Positions 1,646 through 63,311 of a stretch of 64,000 nucleotides of DNA are shown here, one piece after another (the stretch's first letter is position 1; every line of letters begins with the position of its first letter). Source of the DNA: Rufibacter sp. LB8 (lineage in GTDB: Bacteria; Bacteroidota; Bacteroidia; Cytophagales; Hymenobacteraceae); the NCBI RefSeq assembly GCF_014876185.1, contig NZ_JADALJ010000001.1, forward strand, positions 2,337,501 through 2,401,500, written 5' to 3'. The position numbers and the translations under genes were made by a program. The notes beneath the pieces were generated by a model, which had not been told where the DNA came from, searched no databases, and saw only the letters and a list, made by a program, of their open reading frames with translations.

Positions 1646-1684
1646 GCGTTTTCGGGCTCATTTCTGGAAACGGAGCCGAAAACG
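1646..1684. repeat. Intergenic palindrome family, copy 1
   Basis: The left arm gCGTTTTCGGGCTCATTTC is perfect; the right arm is diverged (CGGAGCCGAAAACG). It lies 65 bp upstream of the peptidase start, one of the fewer copies on the 5' side of a gene. Confidence 0.9.
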
Positions 1685-1750
1685 AAAGTCGGTAAGTATA
1701 TTTGATTCTATAGGGACAGGGCTGGACCTGTTCTCCACGCCATTCTGGGT

Positions 1751-1873
1751 GTAGGGGCGTATCGCATACGCCCTTTGCCGTAGCCAACGCAGAAAAGCGA
1801 ATTCCGAGGCATTTTTCCAATGGTTGACGGCCAGAAAAAGCCACCGTCTAGGGCGTATGCGATACGCCCCTAC
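1751..1873. repeat. MITE-like inverted repeat (gtaggggcgtatcgcatacgccc arms)
   Basis: Two 23-bp arms at 1751-1773 and 1851-1873 are exact reverse complements, enclosing about 77 bp. Each arm also contains its own small palindrome (GCGTATCGCATACGC). No ORF inside is convincing. This type of GTAGGGGCG...CGCCC arm is familiar as a dispersed repeat in many bacterial genomes. Non-autonomous element or structured-RNA seed are both possible. Confidence 0.75.
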
Positions 1874-1916
1874 AAGCAGGAATGAATATTCAGACAGTTG
1901 CAATCCTTTCAACTAA

Positions 1917-2794
1917 GAGCATGTTTAAATTTTGGAAAGGGATAAAAAAAGCGAGTCAGCCCGTAAGCATTAAGTGACCAAACTTCGGTGCTTATGGAAT
2001 CCCAGTACAGGAAATTGACTGACTCGCAATGGGAGGCGATGAAGTCATCGCTGCCCACTGATAGGAAACGTCTGCACAGCCTTCGGGTTATAGCGGACAC
2101 CATATTTTACGTGCTTCGCGTGGGATGCCAGTGGCGGAACCTGCCGCAGGGGTGTTTCCCCAAGTGGCAGCTGGTGTACTACTACTTCCGCCTATGGAAG
2201 TCGGACGGCACGCTGGAGAGGCTTAACTGGGCCCTGAACATGCGGGAGCGGAGAAGGCAGGGCAAGGCGGACTCGCCCAGCATGGTCAGCATTGACAGCC
2301 AGTCGGTTAAGGCAGGCCCGTTCATCTCACAGGAGACAGGCGTGGACGGCAACAAGAAGGTCAACGGGCGGAAGCGGCACGTGGTCACCGACACGCTAGG
2401 CCTGGTGTGGGGCGTGGTGGTGCACGGGGCCAACAGGGCGGACGGGGCCCTGGCCCGCAGGGTGGTGGAGCCGATGAAGGGCTACCTGCACCGCATGGAG
2501 AAGATACTGGCCGACGCCGCCTACCAGAAGGGCTTCATGGCCTGGGTGGAGGAAAGTTTGCTGGGCGTGGAGTTGGAGGTGTCATCCAAGCCGCCGGGAA
2601 CGGAGGGTTTCGCCCCTGTGAGGTGGAGGTGGGTCACGGAGCGGGCCTTCGGCATGTTCTCCTTCTTCCGCAGGCTCGACAAAGACCACGAGAAAACGAC
2701 CGAAAGCGCCGAAAGTTGGGTGCTTTGGCAGAACTGCCAAGTCATTCTCAATCGTTTGGGCTGATAACCAGAAAGTTAAAATTTAAACAAGCTC
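1917..2794 (+). mobile_element. IS5-family insertion sequence, 878 bp, apparently intact
   Basis: Terminal inverted repeats are GAGCATGTTTAAATTTT at 1917-1933 and its complement with one mismatch at 2778-2794. The trinucleotide TAA flanks both ends (1914-1916 and 2795-2797), fitting the 3-bp TNA target duplication of the IS1031/ISL2-type subgroups of IS5. A single uninterrupted transposase gene fills the element. The insertion sits in a gene-free spacer beside other repeats and breaks no recognisable gene. Confidence 0.9.
1994..2764 (+). CDS. IS5 family transposase
   Basis: This DDE transposase of about 256 residues moves the surrounding IS. The N-terminus (YRKLTDSQWEAMKSSLP) and the WRNLPQGCFPKWQLVYYYF block are typical of the IS5 helix-turn-helix/DUF4096 region. 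The catalytic triad is visible as D in SIDSQSVKAG, D in ILADAAYQKG and E in VTERAFGMFSFFRRLDKD. The ATG at 1994 is preferred; a GTG two codons upstream (1988) is the alternative. The frame is intact with no programmed frameshift, so the enzyme may be active. It is more GC-rich than some nearby accessory genes. Confidence 0.92.
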   Translation: MESQYRKLTDSQWEAMKSSLPTDRKRLHSLRVIADTIFYVLRVGCQWRNLPQGCFPKWQLVYYYFRLWKSDGTLERLNWALNMRERRRQGKADSPSMVSIDSQSVKAGPFISQETGVDGNKKVNGRKRHVVTDTLGLVWGVVVHGANRADGALARRVVEPMKGYLHRMEKILADAAYQKGFMAWVEESLLGVELEVSSKPPGTEGFAPVRWRWVTERAFGMFSFFRRLDKDHEKTTESAESWVLWQNCQVILNRLG

Positions 2795-2827
2795 TAAACG
2801 ACTCTACAGCTTACAAATAAAATAATT

Positions 2828-2861
2828 CCCTCATCCTACCCTTCTCCCAGGGGGAGAAGGG
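2828..2861. repeat. CCTTCTCCC/GGGAGAAGG palindromic repeat
   Basis: CCCTCATCC is followed by CCTTCTCCCAGGGGGAGAAGG, a near-perfect hairpin. Two relatives occur at 32709-32744 and 32874-32909. This is a commonly seen dispersed bacterial repeat type. Confidence 0.7.
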
Positions 2862-2921
2862 ACTGCGTGTTCTTACCTTGAACCGGAGTTGGCGTGGCTT
2901 GGAGATTTACAAAAGAAACTT

Positions 2922-2961
2922 CCGTTTTCGGGCTCATTTCTGGAATTGAAGCCGAAAACGG
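2922..2961. repeat. Intergenic palindrome family, copy 2
   Basis: Left arm CCGTTTTCGGGCTCATTTC, right arm GAAGCCGAAAACGG with a substitution. It lies about 40 bp beyond the thymidine kinase stop (reverse strand). Confidence 0.9.
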
Positions 2962-5503: not shown

Positions 5504-5543
5504 CCCGTTTTCGGCTTCGTTTCCGGAAATGAGCCCCAAAACG
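5504..5543. repeat. Intergenic palindrome family, copy 3
   Basis: Begins 3 bp after the stop of the preceding gene; arms CCGTTTTCGGCTTCGTTTC / GAAATGAGCCCCAAAACG with mismatches. A conventional terminator follows directly, so here the palindrome is not needed as the terminator itself. Confidence 0.9.
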
Positions 5544-5923: not shown

Positions 5924-8900
5924 ATGCAATATCTATCACTACGATTTTTTCAAAAACAATCACTTGTATTTTTTTGGCTAACAGTCTTCATAATCATAGG
6001 TTCATTTTCTGCTGTCGAAGCCCAGCAGCCTCCAGGAACATTGGACTTAACATTTAATCCCAATGATCTTGGTCTTGGTGATGGTTTAGCCGGAGGCAGC
6101 GTAAATACATCAGCCGTTCAGGCAGATGGAAAAATTCTTATCGGAGGGTCGTTCACCTTTTATAATGGCATCAGCCGTAATCGTATTGCGCGATTAAACA
6201 TAGACGGTTCCATTGACAATAGCTTTAACCCCGGTGCTGGAGTAGTAGATGGTGGAATTCTAATTCTATCAATACAGCCAGATGGAAAAATCCTAATCGG
6301 CGGAGATTTCTCTTCATATAATGGCATCAGCCGCAAACACATTGCGCGTTTGAATGTAGATGGCTCCCTGGACAATTCTTTTAATTCTGGCATAGGTCCT
6401 AATGATGCCATTTTTAATGAAACACTTATAAGAACCTTAGTTGTGCAGCCCGATGGTAAGATTTTAATTGGAGGTGAATTTACTACTTTTAACGGGGAAA
6501 TGCATAAGCGCATTGTTCGCCTGAATATTGATGGCTCATTAGATAATAGCTTTGAGACTGGCTCTGGTGTAGAAGACGGTCAGCTTTTATCAATAGCGAT
6601 ACAACCTGATGGCAAAATCCTTATTGGTGGTCAGTTCACCTCATATAATGGCACTGCATGTAACCGTATTATCCGACTTAATCCTAATGGCTCCCAAGAC
6701 CACTCATTCAATGCAATTAATGTGGGAAGTTATATATATACAATAGTTCTACAGCCCGATGGCAAAATTTTAGTTGGAGGAGGAGGGGGAATAAATATAG
6801 TTCGTCTACACTCTGATGGCACTAGAGATACCAGCTTTAATGATCGAACTATGTGGATTAGTGTTCTAACCATAGGACTACAACTAGATGGAAAAATTGT
6901 AGTCAGCATGAATTTAACCTTTGATGAAGGCGATATCCCTAATGTAATTACTAGACTAAATGCTGATGGCACTCCTGATGTAACCTTTAATATTGAAGGG
7001 GATGGAGTAGACAATTTTGTAAACACTGTTTCATTTCAGCCAGATGGCAAGATTTTCATTGGAGGGCAATTCACTTCTTATAACCGAAAGGAACGCAAAT
7101 ACGGCACTCGTTTAAACTCTGATGGATCTTTAGACATTAATTTTAATCCTCAGACCGGTGCCAATAATACTGTAACAACCCTTTCAGTGCAGGAAGACGG
7201 CAAAATACTTCTAGGCGGTGATTTCACATCCTACGAAGACATAAGCCGGAACCGGATCGCACGTCTCAACGCAGACGGTACTTTGGATACATCATTCGAC
7301 CCAGGAATAGGTCCAAATTATTATGTTAATTTCCTATTAAAACAGCCTGATAATAAAATACTAATAGGCGGACATTTTACTTCTTACAATAGTACGAGCC
7401 GTAACCACATCGCCCGTCTGAACGCAGACGGCACACTGGACACATCCTTCGACCCAGGGGTAGGAACTAATGGCCCAATCTACAACATGATTGTGCAGCC
7501 AGATAACAAGATAATTGTAAGTGGTTCATTTACTTCCTATGATGGAATAACTCGGAACCGCATAGCTCGTTTACATTCTAACGGCTCTTTAGACACTGGT
7601 TTTAATCCAGGCACTGGAGCTAATGATGAAATAAAAGCCCTAGTGGTGCAGCCTAATGGCAAGGTACTAATAGGCGGCTCATTCACATCCTTCAACAGCA
7701 CGGGCCGCAACCGAGTCGCCCGCCTCAATGCAAATGGCTCCTTGGACACCTCCTTCGACCCTGGCTCAGGATTTAATGCTGAAATTAAAGCATTGATATT
7801 AGGGCCTGACGGTAAGGTGATTGTAGGCGGCTCATTCACATCCTTCAACGGCACGGGCCGCAACCGAATCGCCCGCCTCAATGCAAATGGTTCTTTAGAT
7901 ACCTCCTTCGATCCAGGCTCCGGAACCAATGGTTTTATTAATACCTTGGTGATACAGACCAACGGGAAAATCATCATAGCCGGTAATTTTGGCATCTACA
8001 ACGGCATGGCACGCAGCAAAATTGCCCGCTTGGGCCCAAACGGCTCCCCAGACGCATCCTTCTACACCGACCAAGGCCCTAATAGTGATGTTAATACTCT
8101 AGCTCTGCAGCCTGACGGAAAAATACTTGTAGGCGGGTATTTCACCTCTTATGACCGCAGGGGCCGCAACCGCGTCGCTCGTATTTTCGGAGGAGAAACT
8201 ACATTTACTTGGATGGGGCCCTTTTCCAACACTTGGGGAGTAACCAACAACTGGAATGACTCCCGCAACTGGAGTAGCTATACAGTTCCCACCTCTGCGG
8301 ACGATGTGGTAATTCCTGCTGGGCGTTTACTTTACCCAGTTTTATCTTCGAGCGTCGCATTGGGCATCGCTTCGGTTAAGAACCTGACAGTGGAAGCGGG
8401 TGCCAGTCTAACCATAACAAGCGGCAACCTTTCTCTCTTCGGCAATTTTATCAATAGCGGAATATTTTCTCACACAAATGGCTTAGTCTCGTTCACGGGT
8501 GCCACCACACAGACTGTTTCGGGCAGCTCTTCCACCATTTTCCGTAACTTGACCATAGGCAGCCAGGGCCTAAGCTTGAATTCAGCGGCAGGTTTAAAAG
8601 GCATTCTTACCCTCACGGGCAATTTAACTACCAATGGCAACCCGTTCACTGTCATTTCTGATGCCTCGGGCACGGGCATGGTGGTGAACAGCGGGGGCGT
8701 AGTAAACGGAACGGTCACTGTGCAAAGGCGCATTCATGCGTCTGCCAACGGCGGAAGAGGCTACCGGCATTATGCATCGCCGGTGGTCAACACTACGGTG
8801 GCAGACTTAGCCACGGCGGGTTTTACTCCCATTGTGAACCCAGCGTACAACGCATTGCCCACACCGCCCATTAGTTTCTACACCGCGGTTACCTACCCTA

Positions 8901-10090
8901 CTATTTTCGCCTATGAAGAGAGTCGCCTCAGTTCAGATTTCCCTGGCTTTGGTATTGGCTGGGCTTCGCCCTCTTCCCTTTCCTCCGTCCTTACCCCCGG
9001 CAGAGGCTACAGTGTAAACATACCCGCAACTGCTACTGTAGATTTAAACGGCACCTTAAACAACGGGCCTGTCAGTGTGAGCCTAAGCCGCGGCCCAGTG
9101 GCTGAGTCAGGATGGCACTTACTAGGTAATCCTTACCCTTCCCCTATCACTTGGAGCAACATTACCTTGCCAGCGAACGTGGGTAATGCGGTGTACGCGT
9201 TCCGAACCTCTGGGGGCTCTAACGGTTCATATGCTTACTATGTCAACGGGGTGGGTAACCTCACCAACGGCACCATCCCCATGATGCAGGGCTTCTTTGT
9301 GAGAGCGTCTGGTCCAGCCACTTTCACCTTCACCAACGCCGCCCGTTTAAAAGAGTATGCAAACCCCTCTTTCCGTACGGGCACCACCAGGCCACTGTTA
9401 GAACTGCACCTGTCAGCGGCAGACGGCCAGCGTGACGAAGCGTTTTTCTATCTGGAAGAAGGAGCCACACTAGGCGTTGACGGGGGCTATGACGCTTTCA
9501 AGGTGCAGGACAATTACGGAGGGCAGCCTACCCTTTATTCTTTTGCGGCCTCTGAGAAATTATCTGTGACCGGGCTGCCACCCATGCAGGGGCAAGCTAT
9601 GATAGTGCCGCTTGGCCTAAAGACCAGCCAAGTGGGGCAGCACACATTCAAGGCAGTCAAGTTGCTAAATTTTGAAGAGGAGACCCACGTGATTCTGGAG
9701 GACAAATCATTGGGCATCTTAAAAAACCTTACTCGTGAGCCTGAATATTCTTTCACCCCCTCAGCTAATGACCAAAGTAGGTTTGTGCTTCACTTTCAAA
9801 ATGCTAGGCTTACCAGTTTACATGACCTTGAGCGGGAGGCAACAGTGGTCATTTACCCCAACCCCACTTCCACTGGTTCCCTCCGCATTAGCCTTGAAAA
9901 AGCGAAAGGCAAAAAATTAATGGCCTCCCTTTACAGCAGCGTAGGCAAATTGGTAAGCTACCAAGAAACAGAAATTAAAGGCGGCACTGTCCAAAGCCAA
10001 ATAAGCACTCAAGGGTTGCCAGCTGGTATGTATCTGCTCAAATTGAGTAACGGACTGTCTGAGACTACCAGGAAAGTAATTGTACAGTAA
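5924..10090 (+). CDS. Delta-60 repeat surface protein with T9SS type A sorting domain
   Basis: Predicted secreted 1,388-residue protein. A signal peptide (FFWLTVFIIIGSFSAVEAQ) is followed by about 14 delta-60 repeats (residues about 60-755) of the form QPDGKILIGGxFTSYNG...RIARLNxDGSLDxSFxPGxG. Repeats 5 and 6 are diverged. The middle part (about 760-1300) has WMGPFSNTWGVTNNWND and PTSADDVVIP blocks common in Bacteroidota adhesin-like proteins. The C-terminus (from about 1308, VVIYPNPTSTGS... to GMYLLKLSNGLSETTRKVIVQ) is a T9SS type A sorting domain, so the protein should cross the outer membrane by type IX secretion. Fourteen units could form two seven-bladed propellers (inference). The 5' third is clearly AT-richer than the 3' part. 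Confidence 0.92.
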   Translation: MQYLSLRFFQKQSLVFFWLTVFIIIGSFSAVEAQQPPGTLDLTFNPNDLGLGDGLAGGSVNTSAVQADGKILIGGSFTFYNGISRNRIARLNIDGSIDNSFNPGAGVVDGGILILSIQPDGKILIGGDFSSYNGISRKHIARLNVDGSLDNSFNSGIGPNDAIFNETLIRTLVVQPDGKILIGGEFTTFNGEMHKRIVRLNIDGSLDNSFETGSGVEDGQLLSIAIQPDGKILIGGQFTSYNGTACNRIIRLNPNGSQDHSFNAINVGSYIYTIVLQPDGKILVGGGGGINIVRLHSDGTRDTSFNDRTMWISVLTIGLQLDGKIVVSMNLTFDEGDIPNVITRLNADGTPDVTFNIEGDGVDNFVNTVSFQPDGKIFIGGQFTSYNRKERKYGTRLNSDGSLDINFNPQTGANNTVTTLSVQEDGKILLGGDFTSYEDISRNRIARLNADGTLDTSFDPGIGPNYYVNFLLKQPDNKILIGGHFTSYNSTSRNHIARLNADGTLDTSFDPGVGTNGPIYNMIVQPDNKIIVSGSFTSYDGITRNRIARLHSNGSLDTGFNPGTGANDEIKALVVQPNGKVLIGGSFTSFNSTGRNRVARLNANGSLDTSFDPGSGFNAEIKALILGPDGKVIVGGSFTSFNGTGRNRIARLNANGSLDTSFDPGSGTNGFINTLVIQTNGKIIIAGNFGIYNGMARSKIARLGPNGSPDASFYTDQGPNSDVNTLALQPDGKILVGGYFTSYDRRGRNRVARIFGGETTFTWMGPFSNTWGVTNNWNDSRNWSSYTVPTSADDVVIPAGRLLYPVLSSSVALGIASVKNLTVEAGASLTITSGNLSLFGNFINSGIFSHTNGLVSFTGATTQTVSGSSSTIFRNLTIGSQGLSLNSAAGLKGILTLTGNLTTNGNPFTVISDASGTGMVVNSGGVVNGTVTVQRRIHASANGGRGYRHYASPVVNTTVADLATAGFTPIVNPAYNALPTPPISFYTAVTYPTIFAYEESRLSSDFPGFGIGWASPSSLSSVLTPGRGYSVNIPATATVDLNGTLNNGPVSVSLSRGPVAESGWHLLGNPYPSPITWSNITLPANVGNAVYAFRTSGGSNGSYAYYVNGVGNLTNGTIPMMQGFFVRASGPATFTFTNAARLKEYANPSFRTGTTRPLLELHLSAADGQRDEAFFYLEEGATLGVDGGYDAFKVQDNYGGQPTLYSFAASEKLSVTGLPPMQGQAMIVPLGLKTSQVGQHTFKAVKLLNFEEETHVILEDKSLGILKNLTREPEYSFTPSANDQSRFVLHFQNARLTSLHDLEREATVVIYPNPTSTGSLRISLEKAKGKKLMASLYSSVGKLVSYQETEIKGGTVQSQISTQGLPAGMYLLKLSNGLSETTRKVIVQ

Positions 10091-10388: not shown

Positions 10389-10533
10389 TAAAATATAATA
10401 AAGCGCAGAAATTGCCACCTTTGGCGGTGTTTTCACCACCAAAGGCTCAAATCTAGAACCCACCGTAGAAATCTTGAAAATACGGGGCATTGGCTATAAA
10501 CAGCTTGCCTAAGACTTCCTGCTTCGCAAAAGA

Positions 10534-10570
10534 AAGACCTCGTAGTGTGCGTAGCTCCTACGAGTGTCTC
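10534..10570. repeat. GACCTCGTAG...CTACGAG dispersed palindrome, copy 1
   Basis: Nearly identical to 16998-17032 (GACCTCGTAGTGTGCG then AGCTCCTACGAGTGTCTC), forming a CTCGTAG/CTACGAG hairpin. Lies in the 10389-10706 spacer, which otherwise holds one palindrome-family copy and no gene. Confidence 0.75.
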
Positions 10571-10629
10571 TTCAATAGCTGTAGAAAATACCTCACATAT
10601 TTTTTAAAACCTGTGAATTAAAACTGCTT

Positions 10630-10669
10630 CCGTTTTCGGCTCCGTTTCCAGAAATGAGCCCCAAAACGG
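10630..10669. repeat. Intergenic palindrome family, copy 4
   Basis: CCGTTTTCGGCTCCGTTTC / GAAATGAGCCCCAAAACGG. Located 38 bp past the rodA stop, at the 3' end of the mre operon. Confidence 0.9.
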
Positions 10670-16372: not shown

Positions 16373-16412
16373 GCGTTTTTGGCCTTGTTTCTGGAAATGA
16401 GCCTAAAAACGG
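16373..16412. repeat. Intergenic palindrome family, copy 5
   Basis: GCGTTTTTGGCCTTGTTTC / GAAATGAGCCTAAAAACGG, moderately diverged. It lies about 125 bp upstream of mreB, on the 5' side. Confidence 0.85.
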
Positions 16413-16880: not shown

Positions 16881-16916
16881 CGTTTCCAGGCTCTAAATTG
16901 GAAATGGAGGCGAAAC
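16881..16916. repeat. Degenerate member of the intergenic palindrome family
   Basis: CGTTTCCAGGCTCTAAATTG / GAAATGGAGGCGAAAC keeps the overall symmetry and spacing of the family but with many substitutions, so membership is uncertain. Confidence 0.45.
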
Positions 16917-16937
16917 TGGGCAATGCTTGTACTGGTT

Positions 16938-16966: not shown

Positions 16967-16997
16967 GGGTGAGGTCCCAACAGACGCCTTTTCAAAA

Positions 16998-17032
16998 GAC
17001 CTCGTAGTGTGCGCAGCTCCTACGAGTGTCTC
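16998..17032. repeat. GACCTCGTAG...CTACGAG dispersed palindrome, copy 2
   Basis: Second copy of the element at 10534-10570, differing by a single substitution across the shared core (GCGCAGCT against GCGTAGCT). Confidence 0.75.
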
Positions 17033-17110
17033 TGCCAAAGGCTCCCACTTCCCACACTTACACATTCCAGAAACGACCCTCCTGTCCTAGGAGGGGTTGG
17101 GGGTGGTCAC

Positions 17111-17150
17111 CCGTTTTCAGCTTCATTTCCAGTTTAGGGCCCGAAAACAG
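17111..17150. repeat. Intergenic palindrome family, copy 7
   Basis: CCGTTTTCAGCTTCATTTCC / AGTTTAGGGCCCGAAAACAG, diverged, directly beyond the purH terminator. Confidence 0.8.
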
Positions 17151-19602: not shown

Positions 19603-19641
19603 GCGTTTTCGGGCTCATTTCCAGAAACGAGGGCAAAAACG
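19603..19641. repeat. Intergenic palindrome family, copy 8
   Basis: GCGTTTTCGGGCTCATTTCC / GAAACGAGGGCAAAAACG. Sits between the DUF488 stop (23 bp away) and the purN start (34 bp away), abutting the putative purN -7 box. Confidence 0.9.
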
Positions 19642-20348: not shown

Positions 20349-20388
20349 GCGTTTTCGGGCTCATTTCTGAAAATGAGGCCTAAAACGG
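20349..20388. repeat. Intergenic palindrome family, copy 9
   Basis: GCGTTTTCGGGCTCATTTCTG / AAAATGAGGCCTAAAACGG, 7 bp beyond the stop of the TIGR03915-type gene (reverse strand). Confidence 0.9.
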
Positions 20389-21231: not shown

Positions 21232-21276
21232 AGCTGCGCGATATAGAATTAATGAAACTTCTGGGCAATCTTTTGC

Positions 21277-21315
21277 CGTTTTTGGGCTCATTTCTGAAAA
21301 CGAGGCCGAAAACGG
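21277..21315. repeat. Intergenic palindrome family, copy 10
   Basis: GCCGTTTTTGGGCTCATTTCTG / AAAACGAGGCCGAAAACGG. It lies 45 bp upstream of the DNA-metabolism gene and 14 bp past the small ORF; reading through it adds a false MSPKT-type N-terminus. Confidence 0.9.
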
Positions 21316-21329
21316 AAATCTAAGCTTGC

Positions 21330-24897: not shown

Positions 24898-24937
24898 CCC
24901 GTTTTCGGGCTCAATTTGGGAAATGAGGGCGAAAACA
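24898..24937. repeat. Intergenic palindrome family, copy 11
   Basis: CCCGTTTTCGGGCTCAATTTG / GGAAATGAGGGCGAAAACAG, starting 3 bp after the preceding stop codon. Confidence 0.88.
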
Positions 24938-25403: not shown

Positions 25404-25442
25404 CCGTTTTTGCCCTCATTTCCAGAAACGAGCCCGAAAACG
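25404..25442. repeat. Intergenic palindrome family, copy 12
   Basis: CCCGTTTTTGCCCTCATTTCC / GAAACGAGCCCGAAAACGG, beyond the terminator of the metalloprotease gene. Confidence 0.9.
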
Positions 25443-28298: not shown

Positions 28299-28338
28299 CC
28301 GTTTTCGGGCTCATTTCCGGAAATGAGCCCGAAAACGG
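28299..28338. repeat. Intergenic palindrome family, copy 13 (perfect)
   Basis: A perfect palindrome: CCCGTTTTCGGGCTCATTTCC and its exact complement centred on CCGG. It lies in the spacer between two divergent genes, so it cannot be a 3' element of either. Confidence 0.93.
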
Positions 28339-28456: not shown

Positions 28457-28496
28457 CCGTTTTCGGGCTCATTTCCAGAAACGAAGCCTAAAACGG
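28457..28496. repeat. Intergenic palindrome family, copy 14
   Basis: CCGTTTTCGGGCTCATTTCC / GAAACGAAGCCTAAAACGG, 118 bp from copy 13. The stretch between the two copies shows no gene. Confidence 0.9.
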
Positions 28497-32612: not shown

Positions 32613-32652
32613 CCCGTTTTCGGCTCCGTTTCCAGAAATGAGCCCGAAAACG
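32613..32652. repeat. Intergenic palindrome family, copy 15
   Basis: CCCGTTTTCGGCTCCGTTTCC / GAAATGAGCCCGAAAACGG, 9 bp after the stop codon. Confidence 0.9.
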
Positions 32653-32921: not shown

Positions 32922-32960
32922 CGTTTTAGGCTCCTTTTCCAGAAATGAGCCCGAAAACGG
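32922..32960. repeat. Intergenic palindrome family, copy 16
   Basis: ACGTTTTAGGCTCCTTTTCC / GAAATGAGCCCGAAAACGG, 62 bp before the methyltransferase ATG. Confidence 0.85.
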
Positions 32961-34509: not shown

Positions 34510-34522
34510 ATTAAGGCGTTTT

Positions 34523-34561
34523 CTGTTTTCGGCCCCGTTTTCAGAAATGAGCCCGAAAACG
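34523..34561. repeat. Intergenic palindrome family, copy 17
   Basis: CTGTTTTCGGCCCCGTTTTC / AGAAATGAGCCCGAAAACG, directly downstream of the 34481 terminator. Confidence 0.88.
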
Positions 34562-34572
34562 CATTCCAGAAC

Positions 34573-34729
34573 CGTAGCGGCGTGGCACCGACACGACGTG
34601 TGTCTATGAAACGTGAACGGTTCTCTAACCGACAGACTTACAGCCAAAGCAAAGCTGCGAAATTGTGCTTTGATTAATTGAACTTGTTTTGCTGCGTAGA
34701 GCCACGTCGTGTCAGTGCCACGACGCTAC
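34573..34729. repeat. MITE-like unit with ~30-bp inverted ends
   Basis: GTAGCGGCGTGGCACCGACA at the left end and the complementary TGTCAGTGCCACGACGCTAC at the right end form a long imperfect inverted repeat around about 95 bp without a gene. The right end abuts palindrome copy 18. The left end shares AGAACCGTAGCG with the structure at 39904. Confidence 0.65.
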
Positions 34730-34766
34730 GTTTTCGGCCTCGTTTTGGGAAATGAGGCCGAAAACG
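34728..34766. repeat. Intergenic palindrome family, copy 18
   Basis: ACGTTTTCGGCCTCGTTTTG / GGAAATGAGGCCGAAAACGG, about 60 bp upstream of the metH promoter. Confidence 0.9.
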
Positions 34767-34856: not shown

Positions 34857-34861
34857 CAGGG

Positions 34862-34967: not shown

Positions 34968-35047
34968 GCAGGCCTTGCCTTACCCTACCCTGCACCCTTC
35001 CTCCTGCCCTTTCCTGAGAAGCAACCCAACCCTTTTGGTTTGCAAAG

Positions 35048-38746: not shown

Positions 38747-38785
38747 CTGTTTTCGGGCTCGTTTTCAGAAATGAGCCCGAAAACG
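38747..38785. repeat. Intergenic palindrome family, copy 19
   Basis: CTGTTTTCGGGCTCGTTTTC / AGAAATGAGCCCGAAAACG, 6 bp after the metH stop and within the 95-bp metH-metF gap. Confidence 0.92.
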
Positions 38786-39791: not shown

Positions 39792-39832
39792 TCCGTTTTT
39801 GCCTTCGTTTCTGGAAATGAGCCCGAAAACGG
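39792..39832. repeat. Intergenic palindrome family, copy 20
   Basis: TTCCGTTTTTGCCTTCGTTTC / GGAAATGAGCCCGAAAACGGG, 2 bp after the metF stop. Confidence 0.9.
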
Positions 39833-39944: not shown

Positions 39945-39950
39945 GAATTG

Positions 39951-39989
39951 CGTTTTCGGGCTCGTTTCTGGAAATGAGGCCTAAAACGG
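39951..39989. repeat. Intergenic palindrome family, copy 21
   Basis: GCGTTTTCGGGCTCGTTTC / GGAAATGAGGCCTAAAACGG, 9 bp past the deacylase stop (reverse strand). Confidence 0.9.
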
Positions 39990-42369: not shown

Positions 42370-42409
42370 GCGTTTTCGGGCTCAATTCTGGAAATGAAGC
42401 CGAAAACTG
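42370..42409. repeat. Intergenic palindrome family, copy 22
   Basis: GCGTTTTCGGGCTCAATTC / GGAAATGAAGCCGAAAACTG, 29 bp before the start of the RimK-operon protease. Confidence 0.85.
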
Positions 42410-46479: not shown

Positions 46480-46516
46480 TCCGTTTTAGGGCTCTATTTT
46501 TCAAATGAAGCCCAAA
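46480..46516. repeat. Intergenic palindrome family, copy 23
   Basis: CCGTTTTAGGGCTCTATTTT / TCAAATGAAGCCCAAAC, diverged and with a shortened right arm. Confidence 0.7.
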
Positions 46517-46562
46517 CCAGAAAACCCGACAGTAGACCAAAGGTAAGAAAGCGAAGGCACTT

Positions 46563-46602
46563 TCCGTTTTCGGGCTCATTTCTGGAAACGGGCCCGAAAA
46601 CG
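46563..46602. repeat. Intergenic palindrome family, copy 24
   Basis: TCCGTTTTCGGGCTCATTTCTG / GAAACGGGCCCGAAAACGG. The 46426-46897 spacer holds copies 23 and 24 and no convincing gene. Confidence 0.92.
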
Positions 46603-49280: not shown

Positions 49281-49321
49281 TCCGTTTTAGGCTTCATTTT
49301 CAGAAATGAGGCCTAAAACGG
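49281..49321. repeat. Intergenic palindrome family, copy 25
   Basis: TCCGTTTTAGGCTTCATTTTC / GAAATGAGGCCTAAAACGGA; the GTTTTAGG change on the left is matched by CCTAAAAC on the right. Lies 29 bp beyond the GH20 stop. Confidence 0.92.
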
Positions 49322-52073: not shown

Positions 52074-52114
52074 TCCGTTTTCGGGCTCATTTCCAGAAAT
52101 GAAGCCAAAAACGG
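52074..52114. repeat. Intergenic palindrome family, copy 26
   Basis: TTCCGTTTTCGGGCTCATTTCC / GAAATGAAGCCAAAAACGGA, upstream of the GH20 gene. Confidence 0.9.
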
Positions 52115-52359: not shown

Positions 52360-52402
52360 TCCCGTTTTCATGCTCATTTCTGAAAATGAGCCCCAAAACG
52401 GG
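52360..52402. repeat. Intergenic palindrome family, copy 27
   Basis: TCCCGTTTTCATGCTCATTTCTG / AAAATGAGCCCCAAAACGGGA, 27 bp past the DUF502 stop (reverse strand). Confidence 0.9.
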
Positions 52403-54041: not shown

Positions 54042-54737
54042 TTAGTCGGCTAGTTCTTTGTGGAGTAACGCTGTGGCCACTAAATCTAATACAAAGTCCA
54101 CCTGCTCGTCAATGGTGATGTGTGAGGTGTCCAGCAGGTGGGCATCTTCGGCACGTCTTAAAGGGCTTTCGGCACGGGTGGAATCTATGTGGTCGCGTTT
54201 CTGCAGGTTCTCTACAATTTCGTCATAGGGCACCAGTTGGCCTTTCTCCAGCAGTTCTTCCTGGCGGCGTTTGGCGCGGGTCTCCACATCGGCGGTCATG
54301 AACACTTTCACCTCGGCGTCAGGGAAAACGGCGGTGCCAATGTCGCGGCCGTCCATGACCACGCCGCGGCGCTTGCCCATTTTCTTCTGCTCGGCCACCA
54401 TGGCATGGCGCACCGGGGCCAGCACGCTCACCTCGCTCACTTTGTTGGAGATGTACATCTTCCTGATTTCGTCCTCCACGTTGAGCCCGTTCAGAAAAAC
54501 CTCATTGCGGCCCGTTTTGTCATTCCGGTGAAAGGTGACCTCAATGTTGTCCAGGGCTTCCTGTACCTTTTTGGGGTTGGTGAGGTCAATGTAATGCTCC
54601 AGGAAATAGAGGGTAACGGCCCGGTACATGGCGCCGGTGTCAATGTAGGCGTAGCCTAGTTCTTGTGCCACTTGCTTGGCGGTAGTGCTCTTACCGCACG
54701 AAGAGTGCCCGTCAAGGGCTACAACAATCTTCTTCAT
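54042..54737 (-). CDS. cmk: Cytidylate kinase
   Basis: Phosphorylates CMP/dCMP with ATP. 231 residues. P-loop ALDGHSSCGKSTTAKQVA, AYIDTGAMYRAVTLYFLEH, VVMDGRDIGTAVFPDAEVKVFMTAD and RDHIDSTRAESPLRRAEDAH are the standard motifs. A small lipoprotein-like gene starts upstream on the same strand. Confidence 0.96.
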   Translation of the reverse strand: MKKIVVALDGHSSCGKSTTAKQVAQELGYAYIDTGAMYRAVTLYFLEHYIDLTNPKKVQEALDNIEVTFHRNDKTGRNEVFLNGLNVEDEIRKMYISNKVSEVSVLAPVRHAMVAEQKKMGKRRGVVMDGRDIGTAVFPDAEVKVFMTADVETRAKRRQEELLEKGQLVPYDEIVENLQKRDHIDSTRAESPLRRAEDAHLLDTSHITIDEQVDFVLDLVATALLHKELAD

Positions 54738-54759
54738 ACCAGTGCCTTGGGAATAGAAA

Positions 54760-54927
54760 TTAACAATCTTTAGTGGGGCAGGGAATTCCCTTGCCGCTGC
54801 GCTGCTGGCGCTGGAAAATTTTGGTTTTCTTACTCAATGACGTGGATTTGCGCGTGCAGGCCGGGCTCACCGCCCCCAACAACACGCACCACAGCAACCC
54901 AAGGGAAAAAATCTTTCTCAAAACCAT
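54760..54927 (-). CDS. Small lipoprotein-like protein upstream of cmk
   Basis: 55 residues: MVLRKIFSLGLLWCVLLGAV begins an export signal with Cys in SPACTRKS as a possible lipidation site, then a basic linker and the C-terminal phrase KGIPCPTKDC. Short Cys-ended proteins of this kind seem recurrent in Cytophagales from memory. 22 bp before cmk, so co-transcribed. A TATCTTTG box lies just upstream. Confidence 0.6.
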   Translation of the reverse strand: MVLRKIFSLGLLWCVLLGAVSPACTRKSTSLSKKTKIFQRQQRSGKGIPCPTKDC

Positions 54928-54939
54928 TAACTTTGGGCG

Positions 54940-54947
54940 CAAAGATA
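54940..54947 (-). promoter_or_regulatory. Possible -7 box for the small lipoprotein-cmk unit
   Basis: TATCTTTG on the reverse strand, 12 bp before the ATG at 54927, which would give a very short leader. Confidence 0.4.
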
Positions 54948-55032
54948 CACGTTATCTGCCGGAACCGCCACGTGTTTTTACGTACCTTTCTGTTTCTGGC
55001 CTCCAAATCGTAAACGAACCCCAAAACATACC

Positions 55033-56673
55033 ATGGCAACACGCAGGTTTTTCAAAGTGAGCGGTACCATCCTAGACGTGCTGAACCATGACACCTACCA
55101 GGGCACCCTTGAAATCACTGATGGCCGCATATCGGCCATTATTCGGGAACCGGTTTCAGAAACGCAGTACATTCTGCCCGGGTTCATTGACGCACACGTG
55201 CACGTGGAAAGTTCCATGCTGGTGCCGTCTGAGTTCGCGCGTCTGGCCGTTCCGCATGGCACGGTGGCTACCGTCTCTGACCCGCACGAGATTGGCAACG
55301 TGCTGGGTTTGAGAGGCGTGGAATACATGCTGGACAATGGCAAGAAAGTACCGTTCAAATTCTTCTTTGGGGCACCGTCTTGTGTGCCGGCCACGCCGTT
55401 TGAAACGGCTGGCGCCGAAATCACCCCAGAGGATATTGAGGAACTGTTTCTTCGGCCGGAAGTAAAATATTTAGCCGAGATGATGAACTGGCCCGGCGTG
55501 TTGAACCAGGATGACCTGGTCATGCAGAAAATCACGCTGGCGCAGAAGTTCGACAAGCAGATTGACGGCCACGCGCCCGGGCTGCGCGGCGAAGATGCCC
55601 ATGCCTACGCCGCCGCCGGCATGACCACCGACCACGAATGCTTCACCGCCGACGAGGCCCGCGACAAACTGGCCGCCGGCATGAAAATCCTGATACGGGA
55701 AGGCAGCGCCGCCAAGAATTTTGAGGCCTTGATTGAGCTTTTGAGCGAATTCCCAGAAAAAATCATGTTCTGCTCAGACGACAAGCACCCCGACAACCTG
55801 GTGGAAAGCCACATCAATGAACTGGTGAAACGCGGGCTGGCTAAAGGCCATGATTTGTTCCACGTGCTACAGGCCGCCTGCATAAACCCCGTGCAGCACT
55901 ACAAATTGGAAGTGGGCCTGCTCCAGCCAAAAGACCCCGCTGATTTCATTGTGATTGACAACCCGCAGGACTTCAACATTCTGCAGACGTACATCAACGG
56001 GCAGTTAGTGGCTGAGAACGGCCAAACCAAGATTGAATTCACGCCCAGCGAGATCATAAACAACTTCAACACGGCGCCTAAAACTGTGGAGCAATTTCAA
56101 CTTGCGGGTCAGAAAGGTGCCAGAATACGCGTAATTGAACCGTATGACGGGCAATTAATCACCGGCATGGTATCTACGGATGCCAAGGTAGAAAACGGTT
56201 TTATTGTGAGTGACCCAAGCGTGGATGTGCTGAAAATGACGGTGGTGAACCGCTACCAAAACACCGAACCCGCCGTGGCCTTCATCAATAACGTGGGCTT
56301 GAAACGCGGCGCCATCGCCTCCAGCGTGGGCCATGACTCGCACAACATTATTGCTGTGGGCGTAGACGATGAAAGTCTGTGCCGCGCCGTGAACCTGTTG
56401 ATTGACGCCAAAGGCGGTATCTCGGCGGTAGACGGTGCCCGCGAAGAACTCCTCCCCTTGCCGGTGGCCGGTATCATGTCGGCCGAGGATGGGTATTGGG
56501 TAGCCGAGCAATACGCCAAACTGGACCAAGCCGCCAAAGACCTGGGCAGCACGCTCACTTCGCCGTACATGACGCTTTCGTTTATGGCTTTGCTAGTGAT
56601 TCCGGCTCTTAAACTTTCAGACAAAGGGCTGTTTGACGGGCAGCATTTCCAGTTTGTGGAGGTAGTGGAGTAG
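55033..56673 (+). CDS. ade: Adenine deaminase
   Basis: Converts adenine to hypoxanthine plus ammonia in purine salvage. 546 residues, the family length. The metal-binding amidohydrolase core shows ILPGFIDAHVHVESSM, GTVATVSDPHEIGNVLG and FCSDDKHPDNLVESHIN; the C-terminal Ade domain includes RGAIASSVGHDSHNIIAVGVD and GGISAVDGAREELLPLP. Divergent from the cmk unit. Confidence 0.96.
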   Translation: MATRRFFKVSGTILDVLNHDTYQGTLEITDGRISAIIREPVSETQYILPGFIDAHVHVESSMLVPSEFARLAVPHGTVATVSDPHEIGNVLGLRGVEYMLDNGKKVPFKFFFGAPSCVPATPFETAGAEITPEDIEELFLRPEVKYLAEMMNWPGVLNQDDLVMQKITLAQKFDKQIDGHAPGLRGEDAHAYAAAGMTTDHECFTADEARDKLAAGMKILIREGSAAKNFEALIELLSEFPEKIMFCSDDKHPDNLVESHINELVKRGLAKGHDLFHVLQAACINPVQHYKLEVGLLQPKDPADFIVIDNPQDFNILQTYINGQLVAENGQTKIEFTPSEIINNFNTAPKTVEQFQLAGQKGARIRVIEPYDGQLITGMVSTDAKVENGFIVSDPSVDVLKMTVVNRYQNTEPAVAFINNVGLKRGAIASSVGHDSHNIIAVGVDDESLCRAVNLLIDAKGGISAVDGAREELLPLPVAGIMSAEDGYWVAEQYAKLDQAAKDLGSTLTSPYMTLSFMALLVIPALKLSDKGLFDGQHFQFVEVVE

Positions 56674-57358: not shown

Positions 57359-57399
57359 CTGTTTTCGGGCTCATTTCTGAAAACGAGCCCGAAAACAGG
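57359..57399. repeat. Intergenic palindrome family, copy 28
   Basis: TCTGTTTTCGGGCTCATTTCTG / AAAACGAGCCCGAAAACAGG: the outer CTG/CAG replaces the usual CCG/CGG with both arms changed together. Confidence 0.92.
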
Positions 57400-58448: not shown

Positions 58449-58488
58449 GCGTTTTGGGGCTCATTTCTGGAAATGAGCCCCAAAACGC
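58449..58488. repeat. Intergenic palindrome family, copy 29 (compensated)
   Basis: GCGTTTTGGGGCTCATTTCTG / GAAATGAGCCCCAAAACGC: a C-to-G change in the left arm is matched by G-to-C in the right, giving a perfect hairpin, in a spacer between convergent genes. Confidence 0.94.
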
Positions 58489-60358: not shown

Positions 60359-60398
60359 CCGTTTTTGGCTTCGTTTTCAGAAATGAGGGCAAAAACGG
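60359..60398. repeat. Intergenic palindrome family, copy 30
   Basis: GCCGTTTTTGGCTTCGTTTTC / AGAAATGAGGGCAAAAACGGC, 10 bp past the cysteine synthase stop; a longer nested stem (GGTCGGCCGTTTTTGGC / GCCAAAAACGGCCAACC) precedes it at about 60330-60368. Confidence 0.88.
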
Positions 60399-61388: not shown

Positions 61389-61482
61389 AGTCAATGCGTT
61401 AAAATTCAGGGCTATGAGCGTTTGTATATAGGTGTCTTTCGCAAGCGAAATCAAATTATAAACAAGCTCTGAGAACCAGGTG

Positions 61483-61490
61483 CAAAGGTA
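61483..61490 (-). promoter_or_regulatory. Possible -7 box of the cysteine synthase gene
   Basis: TACCTTTG on the reverse strand, about 95 bp before the chosen ATG; matches TAnnTTTG. Confidence 0.4.
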
Positions 61491-61526
61491 ACTAAAATAT
61501 TTCAGACGTGGCTAACGGCGGTTAGC

Positions 61527-62219
61527 TTACCAGCGGGGGTCAAAGTAACTGGTGGTGTCTCTGAAGAAACGGTTATACCTGATGCGGGCCTGCCTGATGG
61601 AGTCTTGCCGAAGCATGAGCCGCTGCAATTCCTTTTCGCGCTCGCGGGCCTCCATGAGCTGTTTGAGCCGCGCGCGCTGCTTGCCTTCCTTGGAAAACTG
61701 CTCCCACAAGAACGTAAGCGGGCTTTCAAAAATGTTGGGTTCTGCCGGTGGCCCGGGCGGAATGATGATGCGCGGCACGGTGGGGTTCATGCGGGGCTTG
61801 GGCGGCGCGGGCCTAGGTTTCATGTTGCGCAAAACGCGGTCCACTTTCTCTGGCGTAGCAAACGGCGACACTTTCACTTCCTGCAACTGCACGCTTTCTT
61901 CCTGCAGCAGAATGTTCACCCGTATCTCGGTCACGCTGCGCAATGAGGGCACGTACAGTTTCTGCTTGAAGCCCAAGGCTCTAAACACTAAGGTATCTGA
62001 AGCCGGAATCTGAATCCTGAACCGGCCCGCGGCGTCGGTGGCCAGGCCCTGGCCGGTACTTTTCTGGTACACAGACACGCCCGCAATGGGAGATTTGTCT
62101 TTCTCTTTGAGCACCTGGCCGCTGATCACCAAACTTCGGGTTTGTTCTTGCCCCAGCGCCACGCTAGCCCAAAGCAGAGAACAGCACAGAAAAAGCAACA
62201 GGTACAAGGTTTTCAGCAT
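61527..62219 (-). CDS. Secreted carboxypeptidase-like regulatory domain protein
   Basis: 230 residues. Signal peptide (YLLLFLCCSLLWASVALGQ), then a CarboxypepD_reg-like beta-sandwich (about 30-115, ISGQVLKEKDKSPIAGVSVYQKSTGQGLATDAAGRFRIQI) and a proline-rich, then Arg/Glu-rich helical tail (RPAPPKPRMNP, KQLMEAREREKELQRL). Such domains are common at the N-termini of TonB-dependent receptors, but here there is no barrel. Function unknown. Confidence 0.85.
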   Translation of the reverse strand: MLKTLYLLLFLCCSLLWASVALGQEQTRSLVISGQVLKEKDKSPIAGVSVYQKSTGQGLATDAAGRFRIQIPASDTLVFRALGFKQKLYVPSLRSVTEIRVNILLQEESVQLQEVKVSPFATPEKVDRVLRNMKPRPAPPKPRMNPTVPRIIIPPGPPAEPNIFESPLTFLWEQFSKEGKQRARLKQLMEAREREKELQRLMLRQDSIRQARIRYNRFFRDTTSYFDPRW

Positions 62220-62300
62220 AGAGACGGCGGCGCAGCGAATATAAAAACAGAAGGCTTGCCTTTATAACCGGGCAAGCCTTCAAAAGTAGCTAGAGAACGC

Positions 62301-63110
62301 CTAATTCTCGATTTTTATTTTGGTGTCACCAGACTTCATCTTGGTTTCATTGCCGTCTTTCTTAATCTTGGTGTTGTCTGTCTTAATTTTGGTCTCGTCG
62401 CCGTCTTTCTTGATTTTCAGGTTGTCAGACTTATACTTAGACTCGTCTCCTTCATGTTTAATCTTGGTGTCGCCTATCTCCATTTTGGCCTCATCGCCGT
62501 CAATCTTCATCTTTCCGCCGTTTTCCATCTTGTATTTGATGTCTGCATCATAGTATTTGGTGCGGTTGGTCTCAAAGGTCTGGTATTGTTGGGGCGTTAA
62601 AAAACCGCGCATTTCCATGTCTACGTTGGAGTTGATGGATTCCATTTCTTTGTAATATCCCGCCGGGTACGAATCTGCCACGCCCACCGTGCTGGTAGAC
62701 CGGGTGCTGTTCTCGCGCATGGCCATGTCATTGTCTGGCGGAATAGTGGAGCTGGCTGTGCGGCTATCGCCGTTGTCTGCGGTCATGCCGGCGCTGCGGT
62801 TGGTGCTGCTGTAGCGGGTTTCCAGGTCGGCCATTTGGCGGGCGCGGTTGTAGAAAACGGTGCGCAACCGGGCTTGGGCAGCGGTGTCTAAGGTTAAGTC
62901 CTGCGATACCTGGGTGGCCATGCGGTTGGCGCGTTCGCGGTACTCTGTCTCATAGTTGTAGGAAGTGGTGCTGTCATTGGTACTGCCCGCGGCATTGTCT
63001 GGCGTGCTGCTGTCGTTTTCATTGGTTTCTGTGGAGGTACCGCGGTCTTCACTACAGCTGGAGAAAACCAGGGCTCCGGCTGCCATTACCATTAAAAAAT
63101 GCTTTTTCAT
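62301..63110 (-). CDS. Lipoprotein with 16-residue Lys/Asp repeats
   Basis: 269 residues: lipoprotein signal (MVMAAGALVFSSC), acidic Ser/Thr/Asn-rich linker, a helical part (TEYRERANRMATQVSQDL; FLTPQQYQTFETNRTKYYD), then four tandem 16-residue repeats of the type KIKKDGDETKIKTDNT (about residues 198-262) and a short end. The repeats are strongly charged and resemble beta-strand or metal-binding decks; function unknown. The helical middle recalls the Bacteroidota periplasmic DUF-type stress proteins, without proof. Confidence 0.72.
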   Translation of the reverse strand: MKKHFLMVMAAGALVFSSCSEDRGTSTETNENDSSTPDNAAGSTNDSTTSYNYETEYRERANRMATQVSQDLTLDTAAQARLRTVFYNRARQMADLETRYSSTNRSAGMTADNGDSRTASSTIPPDNDMAMRENSTRSTSTVGVADSYPAGYYKEMESINSNVDMEMRGFLTPQQYQTFETNRTKYYDADIKYKMENGGKMKIDGDEAKMEIGDTKIKHEGDESKYKSDNLKIKKDGDETKIKTDNTKIKKDGNETKMKSGDTKIKIEN

Positions 63111-63268
63111 ATGCTTTCTGCTTTCAGTTTAACATGTACCGGCCGCGCGTTGCAAAGGCAGCCTCCCATACGTACGTATTGCCAGACACCATGTTCCCGT
63201 TGGGTTGTACTTTAAAAAGACGCCGGAAAGCCCAGAGTTCTGCAAAATCAGCCTGTGACAAAAAAATT

Positions 63269-63311
63269 CCTGTTTTCGGGCTCATTTCTGAAAATGAGCC
63301 CGAAAACAGGA
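63269..63311. repeat. Intergenic palindrome family, copy 31 (perfect)
   Basis: TTCCTGTTTTCGGGCTCATTTC and its complement with CCTG/CAGG ends: a perfect hairpin around CTGAAAA. It lies about 55 bp past the metallophosphoesterase stop. Confidence 0.94.

Follow-up and report, generated by a model that had tools for sequence, protein, structure and literature searches.

A REP-like palindrome family kept in place behind genes across the genus Rufibacter, with a possible role at transcript 3′ ends

Introduction

The short palindromes that recur between the genes of Rufibacter sp. LB8 raise the question of what a near-palindromic repeat does at such places: whether it acts in the message, on the DNA, or only for its own spread. 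We analyzed a stretch of 64,000 nucleotides from this strain, hereafter the window, together with sampled stretches of its genome and with the genomes of relatives. In the portions of the literature covered, RAYT transposases are presented as the agents that spread REPs, and several functions are proposed for these repeats. The original prediction knew of no description of this sequence, and none of the palindrome family was found in the literature searched; the portion consulted of a study of software-found palindromes in three Bacteroidota genomes names neither Hymenobacter, Pontibacter nor Rufibacter (PMC12306157).

Palindromes in the window

A full palindrome scan of the window returned the same set that had been predicted, namely 30 clear palindromes and a degenerate copy at 16881, with the predicted coordinates lying 1–2 bases ahead of those of the scan. 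The scan found 32 places, 30 clear (0–9 mismatches to 34 arm letters) and two weak (16881 and 54991, 12 mismatches each), and a 4-base center was the best fit in all 32 when gaps of 2–6 were tried. With up to three mismatches, the arm AAATGAGCCCGAAAACG matched the window 48 times against 0.26 expected, a number reached by none of 100 shuffles. The match at 54991 was dropped as a false positive, since it lies directly before a start codon and the orthologs hold the place without the hairpin.

The 30 clear copies are spaced 83 to 5743 bp apart. According to column counts, the 38-bp core is flanked by TTTCC and GGAAA, which tend to pair with each other, and the steps GTTTT and AAAAC are strongly fixed in the near-palindrome. 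At the gathering score, the only Rfam match in the window was a SAM riboswitch, with none to the palindrome family. The copies are given below by 38-bp core, strand (CA-center orientation; a dot where the center is neither CA nor TG), description and source, "both scans" being the arm and palindrome scans.

1647..1684, −, palindrome copy (both scans)
2923..2960, −, palindrome copy (both scans)
5506..5543,., palindrome copy, 4 bp past stop of gene ending at 5501 (both scans)
10631..10668, +, palindrome copy (both scans)
16374..16411, −, palindrome copy; elements at junction in 9/9 relatives having it (palindrome scan, synteny)
16881..16918, −, degenerate copy, 12 mismatches (palindrome scan)
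17112..17149, +, diverged copy, 9 mismatches (palindrome scan)
19604..19641, +, palindrome copy (both scans)
20350..20387, −, palindrome copy (both scans)
21277..21314, −, palindrome copy within about 80 bp of extra DNA, likely gain (relative comparison)
24900..24937,., palindrome copy, 5 bp past stop at 24894 (both scans)
25405..25442, +, palindrome copy (both scans)
28300..28337,., perfect copy between divergent starts (both scans)
28458..28495, +, palindrome copy between divergent starts (both scans)
32615..32652, +, palindrome copy, 11 bp past stop; junction element in 11/12 relatives (synteny)
32922..32959, +, palindrome copy, junction shared with 32615 copy (palindrome scan, synteny)
34524..34561, +, palindrome copy behind ordinary GC-hairpin/T-tract terminator sequence at about 34483–34510 (palindrome scan; terminator read by eye)
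34729..34766,., palindrome copy upstream of SAM riboswitch (palindrome scan)
38748..38785, +, palindrome copy, 7 bp past metH stop; 14/15 relatives have one, 3–7 bp past stop (synteny)
39794..39831, −, palindrome copy, 4 bp past MTHFR-family gene, convergent junction; element in 5/5 relatives having junction (synteny)
39951..39988, −, palindrome copy, convergent junction shared with 39794 copy (palindrome scan, synteny)
42371..42408, −, palindrome copy (both scans)
46482..46519,., diverged copy, 8 mismatches (palindrome scan)
46565..46602, −, palindrome copy (both scans)
49283..49320, +, palindrome copy, convergent junction, kept in 4/4 relatives (synteny)
52076..52113, +, palindrome copy; elements at junction in 8/8 relatives (synteny)
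52363..52400, −, palindrome copy, junction shared with 52076 copy (synteny)
57360..57397, −, palindrome copy (both scans)
58450..58487, −, palindrome copy, convergent junction, kept in 7/8 relatives; locus-specific outer stem covaries (synteny, covariation)
60360..60397, +, palindrome copy, place kept in 8/8 relatives; covariation not above shuffles (synteny, covariation)
63271..63308, −, palindrome copy, kept in 9/9 relatives; locus-specific outer stem covaries (synteny, covariation)

Abundance and distribution

In 1,255,128 sampled bases, 514 copies scored at least 15 bits, against none in the same sequence reversed. The chromosomal sample of 1,084,000 bases, comprising evenly spaced stretches and the window, held 498 of these, which extrapolates to about 2,110 on the chromosome and agrees with the thousands of copies predicted genome-wide. 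The palindromes were nearly absent from the second contig C2 (5 copies, 71 expected) and from two low-GC stretches. The family is genus-restricted, being present in 16/16 genus genomes, with 1–8 matches in 7 of 74 genomes elsewhere in the bacterial family.

Between species, the palindromes differ as dialects. The derived state occupies both arms of 442 of the 514 copies in the window species, and the most frequent arm state in every one of 15 relatives is the ancestral one. The palindromic units of E. coli and Salmonella likewise have different consensus sequences. A search of plasmids with one palindrome copy gave no match; among viral contigs, the window-species dialect pattern had 0 matches and the common-dialect pattern matched one contig.

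Position relative to genes

The predicted proximity to stop codons appeared as a density peak of 12.1 elements per kb of available positions at 0–20 nt after the stop; past 100 nt it had dropped to about 1. Near starts the density was 0.3–1.0 in the closest 20 nt, rising again to 2–4 per kb at 60 nt or more. Because genes were called by our own hexamer method (chromosomal coding fraction 0.76; small genes may be missed), the spacer classes are approximate: 97 of 126 convergent and 52 of 106 divergent spacers carried an element, and one convergent spacer (L018) consisted of 38 bp of element between both stop codons. That no copy lies inside a gene held in the main, but 22 of the 498 lay mostly inside one of these imperfect calls, and if the ORF at 20395–21291 begins at the start codon that makes it longest, it is overlapped there by the copy at 21277.

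Among the stop-nearest elements counted, 130 of 276 lay 0–19 nt behind the stop. E. coli REPs within about 15 nt of a stop are described, in the portion consulted of PMC12306157, as stalling ribosomes and reducing expression. A translational brake of this kind would suit these 130 elements and the 3–7 nt separating the metH stop from its hairpin, but for roughly half of the stop-nearest copies the distance exceeds the reported limit, and others lie between divergent starts, making it a most improbable explanation.

Conservation of places and pairing

Relatives held an element at the window-element junctions in 90 of 101 junction–genome pairs (81 of 92 once the questionable junction at 54991 is left out). 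The element-free junctions of the window had one in 0 of 172 pairs, including 0 of the 88 in which the relative's spacer was at least 50 bp. Eight of the 11 misses came from a single junction (21231–21330), where the relatives have a 15–20 bp spacer without an element (8/8) and the window has about 80 bp of extra DNA, so that the copy at 21277 is likely a gain. As to insertion polymorphism of the kind expected of an IS200/IS605-derived miniature transposon, the junctions compared, across species rather than close strains, gave this one likely gain.

Paired changes among the window copies had been read as conservation of a hairpin. The window copies alone had no covariation excess, and their arms paired slightly less well than shuffled arms; the claim stood instead at three of the four orthologous loci counted. 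In alignments of which A3 and A6 contain gaps and some rows off by one base, both sides had changed in 14 of 25 pairs at 63271 (0/500 shuffles; slid controls 1–7), 13 of 25 at 58450 (1/500; slid 4–10) and 11 of 23 at the metH locus 38748 (15/500; slid 3–9). At each of the three, none of the 500 shuffles came up to the covariation score, and compensatory change extended to outer pairs absent from the repeat consensus; the number of further pair types at 58450 was reached by 43/500 shuffles. At 60360, covariation was not above shuffles (8 of 23 pairs; 326/500 reached it).

The element scan used for these comparisons rewards core pairing and gives outer pairs no bonus, and the core pairing figures therefore tilt towards pairing, as does the pooled-copy count (17 of 23 pairs; 1/500 shuffles). 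Set A5 held 44 of 64 listed copies, taken stepwise down each genome's ranking, with none from G015. Inner pairs 10, 11, 14, 18 and 19 paired less than shuffled in the window genome; among pooled relatives only the center pair did so.

Template switching in hairpins would likewise yield two-sided changes and extended perfect arms, and could maintain palindromes by mutation alone, with no selection. It should, however, make the inner arms alike, whereas those of the window genome are less complementary than shuffled, and it leaves the fixed places behind stops unexplained; we consider it extremely unlikely. Since such hairpins recur at matching places in sister species, and a change in one arm is often answered in the other, they probably do a job at message ends.

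Strand signals and termination

Behind tandem genes, G-U outnumbered A-C in the sense orientation (194 to 154 in the window genome, 136 to 94 in relatives, pooled p 0.0007; 117 to 79 per element, p 0.008) and element polarity agreed with transcription (120 to 77 by variant arm, p 0.003; 127 to 91 by center, p 0.018), these p-values being too small because the cells of one element depend on each other and the divergent-spacer elements, whose orientation is meaningless, gave 61 to 86 (p 0.047). Polarity relative to the replication strand was not clear (219 to 182 by center, p 0.07; 186 to 168 by variant arm, p 0.37). The strand bias weakly suggests a function at the RNA level, and to that extent the predicted role at transcript 3′ ends is plausible.

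Two-way termination, also predicted, was unsupported in the form of an intrinsic terminator. Known bidirectional intrinsic terminators are also hairpins that follow stops and can act for a convergent gene pair, but here the A and T runs come in reverse order: the stem reads GTTTT...AAAAC, opposite to the A-stem-T form in sister genera, and no T-tract follows, the bases behind the element reading GGAAAT with T peaking at 90 of 184 in one position and lower at its neighbors. Ordinary terminators coexist with the element and were not significantly rarer beside it in convergent spacers (28 of 77 with, 10 of 22 without) or tandem spacers (28 of 181 with, 28 of 156 without; p 0.56). Nor were they rarer than in sister genera (convergent, 47 of 97 with elements unmasked vs 14 of 39; tandem, 70 of 337 vs 16 of 118). 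Replacement of ordinary terminators by the element was not supported. A hairpin that alone frees RNA polymerase, as a non-canonical two-way terminator, would agree with the placement at unit ends, with the share of convergent spacers occupied and with the absence of elements at element-free window junctions, many of them in operon-like runs; given the terminator counts, stem order and missing T-tract, we judge it quite unlikely.

Of 28 tandem spacers that have a terminator as well as an element, 17 have the ordinary terminator first, an order seen also at 34524 in the window, and copies so placed would be transcribed by read-through only. The genome encodes Rho; downstream of the element there was no rut-like C-over-G bias (0.513 vs 0.503, p 0.57).

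A candidate 3′-end hairpin

Our leading explanation, held tentatively and at slightly less than even confidence, is an old, mostly stationary REP-like element that would be transcribed as a 3′-end hairpin. Such palindromes would have taken up their places where transcription units end downstream, before the genus split into its species, and mostly stayed. In the mRNA, each may form a hairpin close behind the stop codon with a 17-bp core stem (up to about 25 bp at some loci) and a 4-nt loop. From the sequence comparisons, we infer that it acts in RNA and stabilizes or defines ends, most likely by blocking 3′-to-5′ exonucleases and by setting where the transcript ends once termination, whether by Rho or in another way that needs no T-tract, has taken place. 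Being a near-palindrome, one element can serve both convergent genes. In E. coli, ends that lack a T-tract are marked by REP hairpins, described in the portion consulted as stabilizing rather than terminating (PMC13289151).

Several observations count against this 3′-end reading, namely the lack of covariation at 60360, the weakness of the strand bias, the spacers in which a terminator comes first, the copies in divergent spacers, the lack of rut-like bias and the poorly pairing inner pairs.

An unlikely alternative is a DNA-level palindromic site for gyrase, a role proposed for E. coli REPs in the portion consulted of PMC3733652, or for a nucleoid protein, separating adjacent transcription units. 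The near-palindromic form, the fixed GTTTT/AAAAC steps, the use of either orientation, the copies between divergent starts and behind ordinary terminators, and the one locus in four without covariation would all suit such a site, and a DNA-binding protein that co-evolves with its sites would fit the dialects of the species. Outer stems beyond the consensus, however, covary locus by locus, which a reader of fixed sequence would not need, and the G-U excess and polarity follow transcription, if weakly.

The 3′-end hairpin may also be extended, more speculatively and with considerable doubt, to a genus-specific 3′-end system in which about 2,000 fixed hairpins are read by one putative trans-acting factor whose shifting specificity would drive in-place dialect sweeps. 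If that factor exists, the search target is defined as a protein found throughout the genus and absent outside it. The orthologous positions of the family form a natural series in which the work of 3′ hairpins can be studied.

Relation to REPs and their transposases

The REPs and palindromic units of enterobacteria and pseudomonads are likewise short, imperfect and extragenic, with up to thousands of copies, which the copy number and placement given above match. Column counts around the core revealed no unpaired 5′ tetranucleotide of the GTAG/GTGG or CGTC kind at its foot. Relatives of the Y1 protein of L004 occurred in 15 of 16 genus genomes. Seven of 18 RAYT loci could not be delimited, among them L001 and L190, IS200-like loci with elements on both sides; the 11 delimited Y1 genes (NHLH/NHVH, mostly YIHxNP, mostly 181–187 aa) have motifs resembling subclass 2.6 as given in the portion consulted of PMC6006769. 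An element lay on both flanks within 500 bp at four of the 11 and was absent at two. The one-contig genome G007 carries elements and had no match to the L004 protein (E ≤ 0.1) or the Y1 family (0.001). Dependence of the elements on RAYT was therefore not supported, and because the terminal tag and RAYT tests failed, we call the family REP-like, not REP.

The predicted REP-like mobile repeat agrees in size and placement; against it stand the missing tag, the irregular RAYT flanking, the near-absence from C2 and the low-GC stretches and, in the region compared, the places kept genus-wide. A selfish element of REP type, mobilized by a RAYT (Y1) transposase and biased in position only because insertions elsewhere were selected against, would agree with the size, placement, dialects, Y1 proteins, the flanked L001 and L190 and the likely gain at 21277. 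It is very unlikely in view of G007, the irregular flanking, the missing tag, the deficit on C2 and the positions kept in 81 of 92 pairs. Places are kept genus-wide and the hairpin is upheld at most loci counted, yet the sequence shifts together within species; function is therefore separable from mobility.

Within the portions of the literature consulted, REPs lie mostly between unidirectional or convergent genes, with G-T pairs in their stems (PMC3733652), and laterally transferred regions lack them (PMC3686654). In Bacteroidetes, subclass 2.6 TnpA-REP genes are described as having atypical secondary structures beside them (PMC6006769), a similar case in phylum and in Y1 motifs; the palindrome is set apart since it is not a regular flank of Y1 genes and is present in G007 without them. 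CGTC-tagged REPs, for which the portion consulted of PMC3733652 likewise reports no dedicated transposase, have stems of 8–9 bp and a terminal tag, whereas the palindrome family has stems of at least 17 bp and no tag.

Copy number and placement of the element

The palindrome scan of the window recovered the set originally counted, 30 clear copies, each with a 4-base centre flanked by arms of 17 bases, plus a degenerate copy at 16881, and 48 arm matches were seen against 0.26 expected by chance. The expectation of thousands of copies genome-wide also held, since 498 copies in 1,084,000 sampled bases extrapolate to ~2,110 on the whole chromosome; a control scan of reversed sequence returned 0. 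The element family is confirmed and is REP-like in kind (REPs being repetitive extragenic palindromes), and is unusual in its kept positions, its density and its in-place change of dialect, the species-specific version of the consensus. As the original prediction supposed, no earlier description was found in the literature searched, which was thin for subscription papers.

Contig C2 carried 5 elements in 155 kb, against 71 expected. Two chromosomal 20-kb stretches of low GC were also poor, with 2 elements in L032 (GC 0.403) and 0 in L037 (GC 0.420). Since density rises with GC across 52 stretches (r = 0.70), composition and foreign origin are not separated for element-poor DNA. L032 encodes an asparagine synthase, and a protein encoded in L037 resembles a type I restriction subunit.

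The predicted closeness to stop codons was evident in the density per kb of available positions, which peaked at 12.1 at 0–20 nt behind stops and was 6.7 at 20–40 nt and 1.2 at 100–150 nt. Within 20 nt of starts, it was 0.3 (divergent) and 1.0 (tandem), climbing to about 2–4 at ≥60 nt. Elements occupied 97 of the 126 spacers between convergent genes, 218 of the 563 between tandem genes and 52 of the 106 between divergent ones, some of the last possibly hiding small genes because our gene calls cover only 76%.

Occurrence and kept positions in the genus

In the covariance-model search of relatives that had been proposed, the model of the window copies matched all 16 genomes of the genus and none of the 13 from elsewhere, among at most 150 matches listed for each genome. 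A second model, built from 44 copies of 15 genus genomes and meant to catch other dialects, again matched 16 of 16, with 58–66 matches each among at most 66 scored; outside the genus, under stricter filters, it gave 1–8 matches each in 7 of the 74 genomes from the rest of the family. Density in all 16 genus genomes was 0.35–0.65 copies per kb of sampled DNA, which amounted to only 17–60 kb from each relative.

Synteny was compared for 50 window genes against 15 relatives, that is, for one 64-kb region and its counterparts. At element-bearing window junctions the relative also had the element in 90 of 101 cases, and at element-free junctions it was absent from the relative in all 172 cases, 88 of which have a spacer of at least 50 bp there. 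At junction 54737–55057, which holds the weak match 54991, the orthologs keep their place just before the start codon and the hairpin is not kept; leaving this junction out changed the count to 81 of 92. A single junction, where the window species has ~80 bp extra, element included, accounts for 8 of the 11 misses. Behind metH, 14 of the 15 relatives have the element, and in these it lies 3–7 bases past the stop.

Change of dialect

A crude two-letter rule scored both arms as derived in 442 of the 514 copies from the window species and both as ancestral in 5; in every one of the 15 relatives the commonest arm state was the ancestral one. The flanks and outer stems of the same locus align between species, which suggests that the dialect changed in place; the sweep may have come about by conversion, by replacement, or by selection through a reading factor, a hypothetical trans-acting recogniser of the element. 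An ancestral arm is present in 22 of the species' own copies, 4 of them in L021 (G000:C1:1059445-1079444), a 20-kb low-GC stretch (0.426); these 4, with an arm in the relatives' dialect, look like imports from another member of the genus.

Pairing and covariation

Paired changes among the window copies had been taken to indicate a conserved hairpin. This evidence failed, as covariation among these copies did not exceed shuffles and arm pairing was slightly below that of shuffled arms (14.4 vs 15.1 over 19 positions, two centre ones counted); the hairpin itself was upheld by compensatory change at three of the four orthologous loci counted, which were all that were prepared. Across species, both sides had changed in 14 of 25 pairs at 63271 (reached by 0 of 500 shuffles), in 13 of 25 at 58450 (1 of 500), and in 11 of 23 at the metH locus, 38748 (15 of 500, and none of the 500 by covariation score). 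The two-sided changes at 63271 and 58450 include outer pairs absent from the repeat consensus. Locus 60360 had the element in 8 of 8 relatives, yet no excess covariation (8 of 23 pairs, a count reached in 326 of 500 shuffles).

Among the 514 own copies, the lower stem covaried (z 3 to 8 for pair 7 and for pairs −3 to 1) and pairs 10, 11, 14, 18 and 19 anti-covaried; pooling the relatives gave covariation in the lower stem as well, and there the centre pair was the only inner pair to anti-covary. The inner anti-covariation in the window species follows from element polarity: in the 401 of 514 copies orientable by a CA/TG centre, the variant arm (GGCTTCRTTT, for example) is more often the 5′ one and the consensus arm the 3′ one, with centre and variant-arm orientation agreeing by 195 to 75.

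Mode of action

The best mechanism is a transcribed 3′-end hairpin, to which we give slightly less than an even chance. Strand asymmetries weakly favour action at the RNA level. In elements between tandem genes, read in the sense orientation, G-U exceeded A-C by 194 to 154 in the window species and 136 to 94 in relatives (pooled p = 0.0007; per element 117 to 79, p = 0.008); these p-values are too optimistic, because cells within an element are non-independent and the divergent-spacer orientation control itself deviates (61 to 86, p = 0.047; convergent, 112 to 112). Element polarity agreed with transcription by 127 to 91 by centre and 120 to 77 by variant arm; with replication there was no clear agreement (219 to 182 and 186 to 168, respectively).

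Two-way termination, another of the roles proposed, was not supported in the form of an ordinary terminator. In the stem GTTTT comes first and AAAAC last, and there is no T-tract. Among inverted repeats in convergent spacers, those of this type made up 68 of 129 in the window genome, 0 of 22 in six samples from five sister genera and 0 of 3 in Pontibacter and Hymenobacter; Pedobacter had 2 of 7 and Dyadobacter/Spirosoma/Larkinella 1 of 8. Among convergent spacers, ordinary terminators were found in 28 of the 77 that carry an element (masked) and in 10 of the 22 that do not; the tandem counts were 28 of 181 and 28 of 156. By group, they occupied 47 of 97 convergent spacers in the window species (elements not masked), 12 of 34 in genus relatives and 14 of 39 in sister genera, and are thus no rarer in this genus. 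An ordinary terminator preceded the element in 17 of the 28 tandem spacers with both, which counts against the favoured 3′-end hairpin being needed in every primary transcript.

The suspected link to a RAYT-like transposase was not borne out. Within the genus, 15 of 16 genomes had Y1-family matches, as did 18 of 23 genomes outside it; the exception in the genus, G007 (one contig), has elements and no Y1-family match. REPs are expected to decay after RAYT loss, according to PMC3686654; G007 copies are well paired, with 0.765 of core pairs Watson-Crick vs 0.78 in the window species under a scan that carries a core-pairing bonus. The RAYT gene was delimited in 11 of 18 loci examined; at 4 of these each flank carries an element within 500 bp, and at 2 neither flank does; among the 7 undelimited loci, L001 and L190 had elements on both sides. 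Some flanking is expected because the element occurs about every 2 kb. By description, the closest lead is the atypical structures that adjoin subclass 2.6 genes in Bacteroidetes, as reported in PMC6006769.

Features near the elements

Other window features were as follows.

34860–34968: SAM riboswitch upstream of metH; a hairpin element lies further upstream at 34729
5924–10090: large ORF whose internal repeats measure about 153–156 nt

Between its two B12-binding domains, the metH of G001 (L162:8051-12226) and G013 (L163:8047-12189) has an in-frame insert of about 150–160 aa, in which an endonuclease-like DUF559 domain is recognised (PF04480, E 4e-38 and 6e-35, respectively); the metH of the window is without the insert, and that of G010 also has a longer frame. 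A second palindromic repeat, CTCGTAG...CTACGAG inside, occurs at 10533–10578 and 16995–17040 (copies 91% identical), and its words recur in intergenic DNA. Another inverted-repeat family, with CGTAGCG...CGCTACG-like ends, adjoins hairpin elements at about 34568–34728 and at 39904–39950. The common-dialect palindrome pattern also matched, on both strands, one viral-collection contig (L233:1275-1310), where it may mark the host flank of a provirus.
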